Under the pieces are notes generated by a model. That model worked only from the letters and a program-made list of their open reading frames with translations. It searched no databases and had not been told where the DNA came from. Below are positions 1 through 23,080 of a stretch of 23,445 nt of DNA, piece after piece (the first letter of the stretch is position 1; each line of letters starts with the position of its first letter). Both the position numbers and the translations under genes were made by a program. This DNA is from a virus, in the IMG/VR virus record IMGVR_UViG_3300032285_004247, positions 1 to 23,445 of that record; one strand, written 5' to 3'.

Positions 1-14
1 CACAAACATTCTCC
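1..14. repeat. Left arm of 14-bp perfect inverted repeat
   Basis: CACAAACATTCTCC here is the exact reverse complement of GGAGAATGTTTGTG at 711-724. The two arms bracket the sigma-factor gene. This arm touches the window edge, so the repeat may be longer. A related CACAAAC directly abuts a DnaA box at 794-809. Confidence 0.85.
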
Positions 15-18
15 GAAG

Positions 19-39
19 TTATCCACAGGCTGTGGATAA
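19..39. promoter_or_regulatory. Pair of opposed consensus DnaA boxes
   Basis: TTATCCACA at 19-27 and its reverse complement TGTGGATAA at 31-39 are both perfect matches to the bacterial DnaA-box consensus TTATNCACA. They lie head to head with a 3-nt gap, so the pair can also form a hairpin. They sit downstream of the leftward sigma-factor gene. Three more perfect boxes lie at 801-845. Binding of host DnaA is inferred. Confidence 0.7.
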
Positions 40-59
40 GTGGGGGCTTTCGCCCCCAC
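40..59 (-). terminator. Hairpin terminator of the leftward early operon
   Basis: A perfect 8-bp stem (GTGGGGGC / GCCCCCAC) closes a 4-nt loop, read as GAAA on the leftward transcript (a GNRA tetraloop). It begins 6 nt past the stop codon of the sigma-factor gene. No U-tract follows, so it may be a weak intrinsic terminator or an mRNA 3'-end stabiliser. Confidence 0.5.
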
Positions 60-65
60 CTCACC

Positions 66-596
66 TCACGCCCCGACTAGTTGAGCCTTTAGTTGCTTCT
101 TTGCTCGGTTGCATCGGCTCATTACTGTACCGATTGCGATTCCTTGCGCTTCTGCGCACTCCTCATAAGTGAGCCCGTCGATTGTGATTAGTATGAAAGT
201 CTCACGGATTCCCTCATTAAGGGTAGAAAGTGCGTTTTCGATCTCTGGAGAGAATTCTCCTCGGATAACCTCTGCCTCTGCACTGCGAGCGCCTTGCGCG
301 TCTAGTGCTTGAGCAACGCATTCGTCATTGCTAAGGATACGCCCGTTACCCTTGCCGAAGAGTTGCACTGTTTTCTCCGCCTTGCGAGAGGAGAAGGTGT
401 AGGTCATGTTGCGTACTGTTGCGTAAGCATAGGCGCGGAAATTGTCATTCTCGGTGAACTCGCGCTCACTATTAAGTAGGCGGATAATCGCCTCCTGTAC
501 AATATCCTCGCCATTACTGCGGTTTAAGCGTGTCGCATAGCGTACTAATTCTGCGCGCAATTCTAGAATCTGCGCCTGTACTTTCTCGTTTTGCAT
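66..596 (-). CDS. ECF-like sigma-70 family RNA polymerase sigma factor
   Basis: The 176-aa product looks like an ECF-type sigma factor, which would redirect host RNA polymerase to phage promoters. Residues about 10-70 resemble region 2: DIVQEAIIRLL followed by an aromatic-rich FRAYAYATVRNMTYTF segment. Residues about 120-172 are a convincing region 4: a LSTLNEGIRETFIL helix, then a GLTYEECAEAQGIAIGTVMSR helix-turn-helix with a basic tail. The start at 596 is chosen because AGAAAGG lies 7 nt upstream. A GTG at 656 would add 20 residues but has no Shine-Dalgarno sequence. It is the last gene of the leftward operon and is bracketed by the 14-bp inverted repeat and DnaA boxes. Direct repeats at 634-690 lie just upstream and could regulate it. 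A sigma-like DNA-binding regulator that does not bind polymerase cannot be excluded. Confidence 0.82.
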   Translation of the reverse strand: MQNEKVQAQILELRAELVRYATRLNRSNGEDIVQEAIIRLLNSEREFTENDNFRAYAYATVRNMTYTFSSRKAEKTVQLFGKGNGRILSNDECVAQALDAQGARSAEAEVIRGEFSPEIENALSTLNEGIRETFILITIDGLTYEECAEAQGIAIGTVMSRCNRAKKQLKAQLVGA

Positions 597-633
597 TTTA
601 ATGCCTTTCTGTAGGTGTACCTGATTGAACGCC

Positions 634-690
634 ACTCTACCCGAATCTATTCCCACTCTCGAACTCTCGGCTAACTCTCAGGAAACTCTC
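634..690. repeat. Iteron-like direct repeats (AACTCTC, 11-bp period)
   Basis: AACTCTC occurs at 662-668, 673-679 and 684-690, exactly 11 bp apart, so about one helical turn. The core ACTCTC also occurs at 655-660, and a variant ACTCTA lies at 634-639. On the leftward strand they read GAGAGTT. They sit immediately upstream of the sigma-factor start and next to the hairpins and DnaA boxes. They could be replication iterons or operators for a regulator stacking on one DNA face. Confidence 0.6.
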
Positions 691-710
691 AGACACGCCC
701 GACCGCGTGG

Positions 711-724
711 GGAGAATGTTTGTG
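711..724. repeat. Right arm of 14-bp perfect inverted repeat
   Basis: GGAGAATGTTTGTG is the exact reverse complement of positions 1-14. It is followed directly by TTGACA (725-730) and the tandem hairpins. A small CACGC/GCGTG hairpin (694-709) lies just to its left. Confidence 0.85.
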
Positions 725-727
725 TTG

Positions 728-765
728 ACAAAGCCTTTGGCTTTGTACAAATGCTTCGCATTTGT
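728..765. other. Two contiguous perfect hairpins of identical geometry
   Basis: Hairpin 1 is ACAAAGCC-TTT-GGCTTTGT (728-746). Hairpin 2 starts at the very next base and is ACAAATGC-TTC-GCATTTGT (747-765). Each has a perfect 8-bp stem and a 3-nt loop, and both open with ACAAA and close with TTTGT. The first overlaps TTGACA at 725-730. There is no gene on either strand between about 660 and 847. A role as terminator, protein-bound operator or single-strand initiation structure is open. Confidence 0.75.
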
Positions 766-800
766 TTAATGGTGAGGATAGGGGGGCGGCCAACACAAAC

Positions 801-845
801 TTATCCACAAGGAGGGAAGCCCCTGTGGATAAAGCCTGTGGATAA
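801..845. promoter_or_regulatory. Cluster of three consensus DnaA boxes
   Basis: Perfect boxes are TTATCCACA at 801-809, TGTGGATAA at 824-832 and TGTGGATAA at 837-845, the last two in direct repeat 13 bp apart. A one-mismatch box (TTATCCACT) at 1105-1113 lies inside a coding region. With the pair at 19-39 this makes five perfect boxes within 850 bp. The last box abuts the stop codon of the 54-aa gene. Confidence 0.72.
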
Positions 846-846
846 C

Positions 847-1011
847 TTATCTTTCGTAATAGTTATCGTGCCACGCCTCGCGGTCATATTCTATTTCCGC
901 GTCTCGCGCTTCATAACCTTGCTTGAACCCGCGCTCACGGATAGTTTCATAGAGCATTGGGATTAAGAACGGGAGAATGAAGAGGCATACGCCCCACTCG
1001 AATGTAGTCAT
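847..1011 (-). CDS. 54-aa single-pass membrane microprotein
   Basis: No family is recognised. The N-terminus carries one hydrophobic segment (residues 6-21, GVCLFILPFLIPML). After it comes a charged tail rich in Arg, Glu, Asp and Tyr ending in WHDNYYER, so the protein probably sits in the inner membrane with a cytoplasmic tail. Its ATG overlaps the stop of the upstream 96-aa gene in an ATGA arrangement, which implies translational coupling. The coding sequence keeps a continuous frame up to a TAA that lies 1 nt from the last DnaA box. Membrane-anchored early phage microproteins often block superinfection or alter host envelope functions, but nothing here identifies a target. Confidence 0.65.
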   Translation of the reverse strand: MTTFEWGVCLFILPFLIPMLYETIRERGFKQGYEARDAEIEYDREAWHDNYYER

Positions 1012-1298
1012 TGGCTTAATCCTAGTAATTCGTCAATCGCAACCTTCTGCAATCGTCGGACATATTCGCTCACTGCCATATCGCGAGCAATTTGGATATC
1101 AGAGTTATCCACTTCACACTGCCAGCAAGCGCAATCGTAATCTACCCACATGTTCACGCCGTGGATACAGTGCTGCGGGCGAAAGCCTTGCTTATAGTAA
1201 TAGTCACATTCCTTGCGGTATTCCTCGCGCCGTTGGACTAGCCACTCACGCGCTTCTTTATATAGGGGATAGATTTCTTTAGCGATAATTGGTCGCAT
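1008..1298 (-). CDS. 96-aa Cys-rich putative zinc-binding protein
   Basis: The function is unknown. The N-terminal third (residues 8-35) is a charged amphipathic helix rich in Glu, Arg and Tyr. A metal-site candidate follows: C44-x-H46, then C56-x-C58-x2-C61 within the segment CIHGVNMWVDYDCACWQC. The C-terminus is again helical. The pattern C-x-HG...W-x-DY...C...CE is familiar from small actinophage proteins of unknown role (recollection, not searched). The start at 1298 is supported by AGAAAGG 8 nt upstream, the same ribosome-binding sequence used by the sigma gene. It is the middle gene of the leftward operon and overlaps the 54-aa gene by 4 nt. Confidence 0.75.
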   Translation of the reverse strand: MRPIIAKEIYPLYKEAREWLVQRREEYRKECDYYYKQGFRPQHCIHGVNMWVDYDCACWQCEVDNSDIQIARDMAVSEYVRRLQKVAIDELLGLSQ

Positions 1299-7544: not shown

Positions 7545-9341
7545 ATAAGACAACTGCGTTTATTCGCAGCATTATTTGTATTAACATCCGCAGCTTTTTT
7601 TCCAGCATTATTTGCAGAATCTGCTTACTCTACTTGCGTTAACACCGCTCAAGCTGCCGCCATTGCCGCAGCTGCTACACCTACGCTTGAAGGCGAAACT
7701 CCTACAGTAACTACTTTAGATACTTGCGGTGGTGATGACGTGTCATATCAAGTTCCGGTTACTACAACTGTTACTTTTGATGGTCAACAATACACTTCAG
7801 TATATGCGACTACAAATGCAGTAATTACATTTGGTCGCCCAGACAATACATATTGGACTTACCCGCAAACACCTTCTATATCTTTGTACAGCATGGACTG
7901 GTTTGTATACCCACAAGGACATGAAGATGAGCACCTTATTATTAATTCAAGTGACGGCGGCTTTCAAGTAGATATTTCAGCAAGGCCGTGTTGCAGCGGA
8001 GCCCCTATTAGTCGCTTAGGTGCCGCAACAAACATAATTATTACTGCGGCTATAAATACAGATGGAACTGTTGCTATTGTTTACGCTGTTACTGGGCCGA
8101 CCTATGATGGTCAAACAAGAACAGGTGTTCGTTTAAATGATGGAAGTATTGTTACTCTTGAGCAGTACGGCGTTGTTCACGTTGAGATTGCTCCAACTCT
8201 TGCTCCTGATGCAGGCGGGACAGTGATAACTCCTGAGCCTTCTGCGAGTCCTTCCGCAAGTCCAAGTAGTGAGCCCTCTCCTTCTCCTTCTCCGAGTCCT
8301 TCAGCTTCTCCATCCATACAACCAACACCAAGCCCAAGCCCATCACCAAGCCAAATACCAACTGAGACACCATCTCCTACTCCTTCCCCATCAGCTTCAC
8401 CGTCTGATAGTCCAACGCCATCTCCAACTCCGACACCCGAAGTAACGCCCGAGCCAAGTCCGACTCCAGCTCCTTCACCCGAGCCAACAATTCCTCCTGT
8501 GTTGCCTGAACCATCACCTACTCCTCCGCCTGCGCCTGAGCCTGTTGTTGCACCTGTTCAACCTTCTGTCGAGCCAGAGCCTTCAGTAACGCCGCCTGAG
8601 CAGCCTTCTCCAGCGCCTGAGCCGTCTCCGGAGCCATCTCCTGAGGTAGTTCCTGAGCCACAGCCTACTCCAGCTCCAGAGGCAGTTGAGGAGCCTGCTC
8701 CAGCCCCTGAGCCTCAACCAGAGCCACAGCCAGACCCAGAACTCGAACCTGCTCCGCAGCCAACTCCTGAACCCGTTCCTGCGCCTGCTCCAAAGCCTGA
8801 ACCAGCGCCCGCACCTGCTCCTGCACCTGAACCTCCAATAGTTCCGGGGCTTATTCCAAATAGCCCCGACCAATTATCAGATACTACACCAAAGGAAGCA
8901 CCTAAGGAAGTTTTAGTACCCCATACCCAAGTAGATAAGCCTGGTGTTGAAAACGGCGGTATTGAGTTCTTTGGTACTAAATCTGCCCCTCAAGTTGTTG
9001 GTGAGGATGGGAACTTAACTTTACCCGCCCCACCACCTGGCTCTGGTCTTCCAATCCCACCAGATGCAATTACAACTACAGATACTTTTATTGGGCAACC
9101 AGGTGGAACAACATTTAACGCACCTGATATTGCGGTTCCTGTAGAATTAGTACCTGTTGATGTACCCGCAGCATTAGATGTAATCCCTGGCGCTGGAGCA
9201 GCTGTTCAAGCTGTTAACCAAGCCTATGTAGCACTAGCCAATATCGGTAACGATATGTCTCCTATTACTCGTAAAAAAGCAAAGAAGATATTGGTTATCA
9301 CAACCGTGATAGCTGCAGTACGGAGGAGATTCGGTAGCTAA
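7545..9341 (+). CDS. Secreted Pro-rich protein with AUA start (598 aa)
   Basis: A typical signal peptide begins at ATA 7545: RQLRLFAALFVLTSAAFFPA, with probable cleavage near AESAYS. No ATG, GTG or TTG lies in frame between the stop at 7521 and the end of the signal peptide. GGAG at 7531-7534 is well placed for the AUA. The first in-frame conventional start is GTG 7740, which would discard the signal and an early Cys pair. Residues about 62-228 form a beta-rich domain with a CC motif. Residues about 230-435 are a Pro/Ser/Glu/Ala repeat linker (PEPSPSP types). Residues 436-598 are a Gly/Pro-rich domain ending in a basic, hydrophobic segment (KKILVITTVIAAVRRR). It precedes the lysis genes by a 1-nt overlap. 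A wall-spanning lysis aid or virion surface fibre are both possible. Confidence 0.68.
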   Translation: MRQLRLFAALFVLTSAAFFPALFAESAYSTCVNTAQAAAIAAAATPTLEGETPTVTTLDTCGGDDVSYQVPVTTTVTFDGQQYTSVYATTNAVITFGRPDNTYWTYPQTPSISLYSMDWFVYPQGHEDEHLIINSSDGGFQVDISARPCCSGAPISRLGAATNIIITAAINTDGTVAIVYAVTGPTYDGQTRTGVRLNDGSIVTLEQYGVVHVEIAPTLAPDAGGTVITPEPSASPSASPSSEPSPSPSPSPSASPSIQPTPSPSPSPSQIPTETPSPTPSPSASPSDSPTPSPTPTPEVTPEPSPTPAPSPEPTIPPVLPEPSPTPPPAPEPVVAPVQPSVEPEPSVTPPEQPSPAPEPSPEPSPEVVPEPQPTPAPEAVEEPAPAPEPQPEPQPDPELEPAPQPTPEPVPAPAPKPEPAPAPAPAPEPPIVPGLIPNSPDQLSDTTPKEAPKEVLVPHTQVDKPGVENGGIEFFGTKSAPQVVGEDGNLTLPAPPPGSGLPIPPDAITTTDTFIGQPGGTTFNAPDIAVPVELVPVDVPAALDVIPGAGAAVQAVNQAYVALANIGNDMSPITRKKAKKILVITTVIAAVRRRFGS

Positions 9342-21502: not shown

Positions 21503-23080
21503 ATGGAACACTTATTAGATGATGAAGAAGATGAGTTCATTCCGGATTTAGAAGAGACACCTCTACCGGATGATGAAGAGATTGAGCTTGATGAGCTCTC
21601 TAAAGAGTTTGTAAATAAACTTATTGACCGTTGTATTCAATTCATGGACGCCCTTGTAGGCCATAGCCTTCACCCATATCAGATGCCGTTAGCGCGTCGT
21701 ATTATCGAATCAGTTATCATTAATGATGGTGAAGAGGTAACCGCTCTTGCTGCACGTCAGTCAGGTAAGTCAGAAACTATTGCTAACACAGTGGCTACCC
21801 TTATGGTGCTACTACCGCGCTTAGCAAAGATGTACCCAGACCTGCTCGGTAAGTTTAGCAATGGCATTATGATTGGTATGTTTGCGCCAGTTGAGGGTCA
21901 GGTAGAAACTCTCTTTGGCCGTACAGTAAACAGACTTACATCAGAGCGCGCATTAGAGATTCTTGGCGACCCAGAGATTGATGACAATTTGGGTAGAGTG
22001 AGCGGCGTTAAGCGTAAGATTGTCTTAAAGAACTCAGGCAGTAGCTTGACTATGATGACAGCTAACCCTAGAGCTAAGATTGAATCTGAGTCGTTTCACC
22101 TTATTGTTATTGACGAGTGTCAAGAAGCTGATGACTTTGTAGTATCTAAGTCAATCTCTCCTATGTTGGCTTACTACTCAGGAACCATGGTTAAGACAGG
22201 TACACCTACAACAAGTAAGAACAACTTCTATAGGTCTATCCAATTAAACAAGCGCCGTCAGACTACTCGCGGTAAACGACAAAACCATTTTGAATGGGAT
22301 TGGCGTGAAGTATCTAAGGTAAACGCTAACTACGGTAAGTACATCAAAAAAGAAATGCTTCGCATTGGTGAGGACTCAGACGAGTTCCAGATGTCTTACA
22401 ACTGCAAGTGGTTGCTTGAGCGCGGTATGTTCATCACCTCCTCTATCATGGATGAGCTTGGTGATACATCAGCTGAGATTACTCGCGCTTGGCACCGTAC
22501 ACCTGTAGTAGTTGGTATTGACCCAGCACGTAAGCTTGACTCAACAGTTGTTACAGTAGTGTGGGTTGACTGGGATAGACCAGATGAGTTTGGTTACTTT
22601 GACCACAGAGTGCTTAATTGGTTAGAGCTTCAGGGTGATGACTGGGAAGACCAATACTTCCAGATTGTTAACTTCTTATCTAACTACGATGTGATGTACG
22701 TTGGGGTAGATGCCAATGGCGTGGGGGATGCAGTAGCTCAACGCCTAAAGATTCTATTACCTAGGGCTGAGGTAATCCCTCTTACGTCCAGCCAAAGCGA
22801 GCAGTCTAAGCGATGGAAGCATCTTAAAGCTCTGATTGACCGCCGAATGATTGGGTGGCCTGCTAACTCAAGAACACGCCGTTTAAGCTCATGGCGCCGT
22901 TTCTATCAGCAAATGACTGACCTAGAAACCAAGTTTACAGGCCCCAACTTCTTGGCGGCAGCCCCAGACGAAGCGCACGCCCACGACGACTTTGCTGACT
23001 CACTAGCTATTGCCTGCTCTCTAACCCTAGACCAGACAATGCCCTCGGTAGAGGTTACAAGTTCGCCATTCTTTAATTAA
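21503..23080 (+). CDS. terL: Terminase large subunit (525 aa)
   Basis: This is the packaging motor that translocates and cuts phage DNA. The ATPase half has a Walker A at residues 84-90 (ARQSGKS), a Walker B with catalytic D204-E205 in LIVIDECQE and a coupling motif KTGTPTTS (231-238). The nuclease half (RNase H-like) has D340 in VVGIDPARKLDSTVV, D403 in VGVDANGVGDAV and D495/D496/D499 in HDDFADSLAIA. The first 35 residues are very acidic (DDEEDEFIPDLEETP). The length fits TerL. The ATG has AGGG 5 nt upstream. A terminase small subunit is not recognised, although the helical 80-aa gene just upstream is a candidate. Confidence 0.95.
   Translation: MEHLLDDEEDEFIPDLEETPLPDDEEIELDELSKEFVNKLIDRCIQFMDALVGHSLHPYQMPLARRIIESVIINDGEEVTALAARQSGKSETIANTVATLMVLLPRLAKMYPDLLGKFSNGIMIGMFAPVEGQVETLFGRTVNRLTSERALEILGDPEIDDNLGRVSGVKRKIVLKNSGSSLTMMTANPRAKIESESFHLIVIDECQEADDFVVSKSISPMLAYYSGTMVKTGTPTTSKNNFYRSIQLNKRRQTTRGKRQNHFEWDWREVSKVNANYGKYIKKEMLRIGEDSDEFQMSYNCKWLLERGMFITSSIMDELGDTSAEITRAWHRTPVVVGIDPARKLDSTVVTVVWVDWDRPDEFGYFDHRVLNWLELQGDDWEDQYFQIVNFLSNYDVMYVGVDANGVGDAVAQRLKILLPRAEVIPLTSSQSEQSKRWKHLKALIDRRMIGWPANSRTRRLSSWRRFYQQMTDLETKFTGPNFLAAAPDEAHAHDDFADSLAIACSLTLDQTMPSVEVTSSPFFN

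Follow-up and report, generated by a model that had tools for sequence, protein, structure and literature searches.

The five exact DnaA boxes at the left end of the window, the whole 23,445-bp stretch of DNA analysed here, look more like gene-control elements than like a replication origin or a switch for the adjacent sigma-factor gene, because the boxes of related phages belong to an intergenic cassette that is repeated throughout a leftward, presumably early-gene arm. We rate the chances as about even that the boxes are parts of this multi-copy regulatory cassette, in which host DnaA would serve as an operator or roadblock in the leftward arm. Our computed observations are the repeated architecture of the cassette, the covariation of its hairpin stem, the association of hairpin and box, their orientation and their genomic position. 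An earlier note on this DNA had read the boxes as a host-DnaA-dependent origin or as DnaA-linked control of sigma expression. The origin reading was weakened, and control by DnaA is now favoured in a broader form, as control of early transcription, while its sigma-specific form is disfavoured.

The window is a complete IMG/VR record of class linear and is probably a fragment of a dsDNA phage of ~96 kb. Its terminase (21503-23080) shares 53% identity with the terminase of Streptomyces phage BRock and 83-87% with those of a family of IMG/VR records with sizes up to ~100 kb; a search for a direct DNA match of the window to phage records returned none. The relation to BRock and a WhiB match in one relative (G041) make an actinobacterial host likely for the lineage. 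Four relatives of 95-98 kb, three of them with identical ends of 55-123 bp, were read end to end, using simple ORF calls as gene calls. Nearly all of their genes, including the structural genes and those for a DnaC-like loader, DnaB, primase, helicase and polymerase, run in one direction, and a single arm of small genes (~8-15 kb) points the opposite way, leftward. The window covers the end of this leftward arm (66-1677, leftward) and the beginning of the rightward genes. A long repetitive Pro/Ser-rich protein is encoded at 7740-9341; its N-terminal part recurs with 84% identity in the nearest relative, G001, and its C-terminal part is common to G041.

Exact copies of TTATCCACA/TGTGGATAA were found at 19-27 (+), 31-39 (-), 801-809 (+), 824-832 (-) and 837-845 (-), five within 845 bp and no sixth anywhere in the 23,445 bp. 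This agrees with the earlier note: 0.22 exact boxes are expected per window, and five were reached in 0 of 100 dinucleotide shuffles. With one mismatch allowed there were 9 sites against 5.7 expected, and 13 of 100 shuffles reached 9. The near-match to which the note had also drawn attention is present, but is probably due to chance, because one-mismatch sites sit at background level. The five boxes form two units rather than independent sites, two boxes in the 21-bp palindrome and three in the 45-bp group, 760 bp apart (Table 1). Positions 801-832 make up a second inverted box pair able to fold as a hairpin, positions 1-14 are the exact reverse complement of 711-724 (a 14-bp inverted repeat), and 16-31 are likewise that of 833-848. 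The clustering probably reflects DnaA-type binding sites, since box pairs 2-5 bp apart, tandem or inverted, recur in the relatives, near the 2-3 bp spacing preferred by E. coli DnaA (PMC11317965).

Table 1 Features of the window around the DnaA boxes and the two cassette copies
Feature	Position	Strand	Remark
Putative cut-off right arm CACAAAC (1-7) of a second hairpin cassette, with spacer ATTCTCCGAAG	1-18		reverse complement of 711-724
Palindromic box pair TTATCCACA-GGC-TGTGGATAA	19-39		identical 21-mer in 104 IMG/VR stretches
GC-rich hairpin GTGGGGGC-TTTC-GCCCCCAC	40-59	-	just past the sigma stop; folds with the box hairpin, z = -5.3
ECF-like RNA polymerase sigma factor, regions 2 and 4, 176 aa	66-596	-	Pfam PF08281/PF04542, PHROG 1740
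Four GAGAGT repeats (first three GAGAGTT), spacing 11, 11 and 8 bp	655-690	-	presumed sigma promoter region
Cassette 1 hairpin, arms GTTTGTGTTG (718-727) and CAACACAAAC (791-800)	718-800		minus-strand fold z = -5.3
Three DnaA boxes: 801-809 +, 824-832 -, 837-845 -	801-845		exact matches
Small leftward gene, 54 aa, ends at the boxes	849-1011	-	start kept, tail replaced in G001
Near-match TTATCCACT	1105-1113	+	one mismatch; within leftward gene 1008-1298

In the relatives, the cassette has a typical order in the direction of leftward transcription: stop of gene A, intrinsic terminator, hairpin, DnaA box TGTGGATAAC and start of gene B. The hairpin is 65-93 bp long; its ends GTTTGTGTTGG/CCAACACAAAC are fixed, and the sequence of its self-complementary stem varies. 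Gene B starts ~115-150 bp past the hairpin, the box is usually read as TGTGGATAA, and a conserved GTTATA or TGAACA motif often follows it. Terminators consisting of a GC stem and a T run are predicted directly upstream of most typical hairpins. The hairpin pattern GTTTGTGTTGG-N42..72-CCAACACAAAC, searched without requiring a box, occurred in 38 IMG/VR stretches, with up to five copies within ~4 kb, where by our own estimate well under 1 is expected; in prokaryotes it occurred in one contig among 257 Gb of GTDB genomes. That sole match (L243, 303-373, in Acetobacteraceae MAG contig CAITUP010000138.1) has no box nearby, and the contig may be a phage contig binned with its host. An exact box lay within 70 bp of the hairpin in 37 of 56 distinct hairpins, all selected by exact arm sequence (19 of 56 had no exact box); the number expected by chance is well below one. 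In 30 of the 37 boxed cases, the gene flanking the box read away from the hairpin.

The stem covaries strongly. Pairing held in 89.5% of cells compared with 71.9% after shuffling, and the covariation score was 0.443 versus 0.140 in shuffled stems (0 of 500 shuffles as high; slid registers, 0.07-0.12). Changes on both sides were seen in 14 of 22 stem pairs, and at positions 12-19 the pairing of an arm with its own partner was ~0.8, compared with ~0.3-0.5 when arms were swapped between copies. The hairpin is under structural selection. Among stem mismatches G-T was enriched (29% versus 18%) but A-C was not (11% versus 12%), which modestly suggests that the sense strand is what is selected, either as RNA or as single-stranded DNA.

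Several identities for the cassette were considered. Integron attC sites have the ends GTTRRRY and RYYYAAC; the cassette ends GTTTGTG and CACAAAC do not fit this consensus, and attC identity was rejected. Rfam gave no match above the gathering score at any hairpin in the window, L239, L202, L214 or L190. No clean consensus sigma-70 promoter was recognisable in the cassettes, and the distance from box to GTTATA varies (about 4 or 13 bp). GTTATAAATCTGTTA was rejected as a single fixed promoter motif because, at three mismatches and genome-wide, it was not clearly above the reversed control. In the literature, of which our coverage was incomplete, we found no description of the cassette, or of DnaA boxes as titration or intergenic elements of phages.

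The placement of the boxes follows the leftward arm. The four relatives of 95-98 kb carry 28 exact boxes; 24 of them fell in this arm, which accounts for 12.8% of the sequence (P = 5e-18), and 22 of these 24 shared one orientation with respect to the genes (P = 4e-5). Both P values are only indicative, because the maps that gave the box positions also served to set the limits of the arm. Most boxes of the terminase-bearing relatives lie ~16-27 kb upstream of the terminase. BRock has no such box cluster, and its Streptomyces-type boxes TTGTCCACA number only two, unclustered. A phage-encoded DnaA_C domain was found in none of 26 records (10 of 14 control genomes were positive), so any DnaA binding would be by host DnaA. 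The exact palindrome TTATCCACAGGCTGTGGATAA occurs in a wider set of viruses (104 IMG/VR stretches, of which L086-L165 are listed), in many cases with unrelated flanks; palindromic viral DnaA boxes are thus a wider and mixed class, since most of the 104 matches lack the cassette hairpin.

The two copies in the window are atypical: their boxes stand at the terminator side of the hairpin and are partly palindromes, and the long inner stem is absent. In copy 1 (718-845), whose layout is common to L200 and L207, the outer 10 bp of the hairpin fit the family, the long inner stem is not retained, and two small hairpins (728-746 and 747-765) are enclosed. Together with the GTTTGTGTT arm, the boxes of this copy form a terminator-like structure for leftward transcription, a hairpin on the minus strand (833-800) with the tail TTTGTGTTGG. 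Copy 2 (1-39), the left element, is cut, since the assembled contig begins at position 1. Positions 1-18 would be an arm of this second cassette, with the left arm off the contig, and their CAAAC-attc..-box order matches that of complete cassettes in relatives. The hairpin at 40-59 has no U tract and is probably the terminator of the sigma gene. The GAGAGT repeats may mark a second class of start region; GAGAGT-like repeats also adjoin hairpins in L212 (unboxed) and in L200 and L207 (boxed).

The sigma gene was absent from every relative searched, although the search of 40 relatives had no positive control and many records are fragments, and a degenerate search of IMG/VR found no relatives of the sigma factor. 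Because of this absence, the gene appears to be lineage-specific cargo between two cassettes. Control of sigma as the general role of the boxes was rejected, since relatives without the gene still carry boxes and hairpins, and the same finding weakens the proposed DnaA-linked control of sigma expression in the window.

The box spacing of 801-845 is repeated in G001 at 89-133. A 135-bp element is 98.5% identical between the two, and its only two substitutions both fall in the 4-bp spacer that separates box 2 from box 3. The adjoining gene at 849-1011 shares a 27-aa N-terminus (96% identical) with G001, and the rest is unrelated (window 848-930 versus G001 135-315); its tail has been replaced right up to the element in G001, which marks a recombination junction. 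The contigs of both the window and G001 start within the element, and those of G084 and L140 likewise have an end at one or close to it. The four contig ends suggest that the cassettes break assemblies.

A host-DnaA-dependent origin, where DnaA would oligomerise, open the DNA and hand over to the phage DnaC-like loader and DnaB, is in our judgement unlikely. It would suit the clustering of boxes in one conserved genomic region, and relatives that encode DnaB, a DnaC-like loader, primase and polymerase but no DnaA C-terminal domain. The hairpins could also act as priming sites, for which the R6K A-site is a precedent. The earlier note had proposed that an origin be checked by a GC-skew switch point, an AT-rich unwinding element and conservation in relatives. 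However, no global skew inflection was seen at the boxes of the four 95-98 kb relatives (on rotated maps the boxes lie at 6-14 kb and the global minima at 37-48 kb or 73 kb), although this is a weak test if the genomes are circularly permuted, and the cumulative skew of the window turns at ~1.5-1.75 kb, where gene direction changes. Among the window boxes there is no AT-rich unwinding stretch and no DnaA-trio (TAG-trio) run; the GC content of the box region is 0.49-0.52, that of window 1-1000 is above the window mean, and the lowest 60-bp value, 0.37, falls inside the hairpin. Boxes and hairpins do recur in relatives, but two of these, G075 and G070, carry 0 and 1 exact box, respectively. The boxes of relatives are, moreover, mostly spaced one per intergenic gap over 4-9 kb, with their orientation locked to gene direction, which also speaks against an origin. 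A far more origin-like cluster is present in another IMG/VR contig, 3300042505_000752 (G053, 129 kb), with ~16 exact DnaA boxes in 0.5 kb (115.4-115.9 kb).

The fixed orientation and position of the boxes beside the hairpins would also suit another protein, either phage-encoded or a different host regulator, that recognises the same 9-mer TTATCCACA in operator repeats resembling stoperators. Conservation extends to TGTGGATAAC-T, and intergenic operator-like repeats are common in actinophages (PMC3203893, PMC4351075, PMC7302621). Nevertheless, a full 9-bp DnaA consensus in tandem or inverted pairs 2-3 bp apart is what DnaA itself would need, and the same palindrome recurs in many other viral contigs with unrelated flanks, which leaves this regulator a doubtful candidate. 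We find it quite improbable that the 5-14 boxes of a phage genome, amplified by replication, sequester host DnaA and stop host initiation. Several relatives do carry many boxes, but several others have only 1-4, and titration leaves the hairpin, the fixed orientation and the one-per-gap placement unexplained. Hardly credible, finally, is a recombination module in which repeated hairpins let small genes shuffle and the boxes are passengers. The near-identical element shared with G001 beside an unrelated gene tail speaks for it, as do the position of the sigma gene between two cassettes and its absence elsewhere; against it, inner stems differ between copies, so that homology is limited to the ~11-bp ends, and a role in transcription is implied by how the boxes are oriented and where the terminators stand.

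If the boxes are instead parts of a transcription cassette, host DnaA would bind them through their match to the 9-bp consensus, although the preference of DnaA in the actual host, whichever it is, may differ. Bound DnaA could then act as an operator, an elongation roadblock or both, beside the terminator and the start region of each short unit. Transcripts would start after the box and the arm would be expressed early. The cassette would insulate neighbouring units and tie early-gene output to host DnaA, in a regulatory direction that we infer, and the hairpin of the sense strand, either in RNA or in single-stranded DNA, may work within an insulator or processing signal. We put forward only tentatively, as a possibility, the full proposal that a widespread environmental phage lineage sets a host DnaA site in a standard terminator-hairpin-box cassette before many of its leftward early genes and that the initiator regulates their transcription. 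If true, the host replication initiator directly regulates phage early transcription and couples infection to the replication state of the host. In an uncultured phage family, the analysis delineates a cis-element that is conserved, covaries strongly and is associated with DnaA boxes, and it offers a concrete way to test whether the initiator of host replication serves phages as a transcription factor. A further lesson is that perfect DnaA boxes clustered in a phage contig are not necessarily the sign of an origin, and that contig ends can fall at such cassettes.

Comparable repeats include the promoter-early stem-loops (PeSLs) of T4-type phages, reportedly described by Arbiol in 2010 and by Comeau in 2014. 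The cassettes are multi-copy, lie in gaps between small genes and are co-oriented with transcription, and the predicted terminators would provide the stem-loop terminator of a PeSL-like cassette. T4-type PeSLs are repeated intergenic terminator/promoter units among small shuffled early genes, as far as the account in PMC4503421 extends. Measured against that account, the cassettes are likewise repeated, intergenic, placed among small genes and oriented with transcription, but after the terminator they carry a distinct long hairpin, which covaries and has fixed ends, and then a DnaA box; they also show no sequence relation, come from an unrelated phage lineage and offer a candidate promoter only. 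The ESAS/SAS repeats of cluster K mycobacteriophages (PMC3203893) and cluster EF Microbacterium phages (PMC7302621) are also multi-copy intergenic repeats upstream of non-structural gene starts, and those of cluster K are inverted repeats with a variable centre. Cluster K ESAS have 17-bp arms with mostly 4-13 bp spacers and adjoin a 13-bp ribosome-site repeat (PMC3203893), whereas the cassette hairpin spans 65-93 bp and has as its partner a DnaA box that precedes the gene by ~115-150 bp; the 13-bp SAS GGGATAGGAGCCC is absent from the downstream sequences listed for the cassettes, and arm length and spacing differ. The 17-bp dyad repeats of cluster O resemble the cassettes in being intergenic, concentrated in a leftward gene arm and subject to deletion by recombination between copies, but differ in sequence, have fixed 7-bp arms, fall inside genes in about one third of cases and carry no long hairpin or DnaA box (PMC4351075). 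The double DnaA boxes through which DnaA acts as a transcription factor in E. coli are TTATCCACA-type pairs 2-3 bp apart in regulatory regions (PMC11317965); these are on the host chromosome, without a long hairpin and not in a repeated cassette. At lambda pO/oriLambda, host DnaA binds phage DNA next to promoters and a role in transcription has been reported (PMC3985674), but at a single locus at the origin, compared with one cassette per early transcription unit here. The cassette is thus a variant of known phage intergenic regulatory repeats, set apart by its long covarying stem and its DnaA box.
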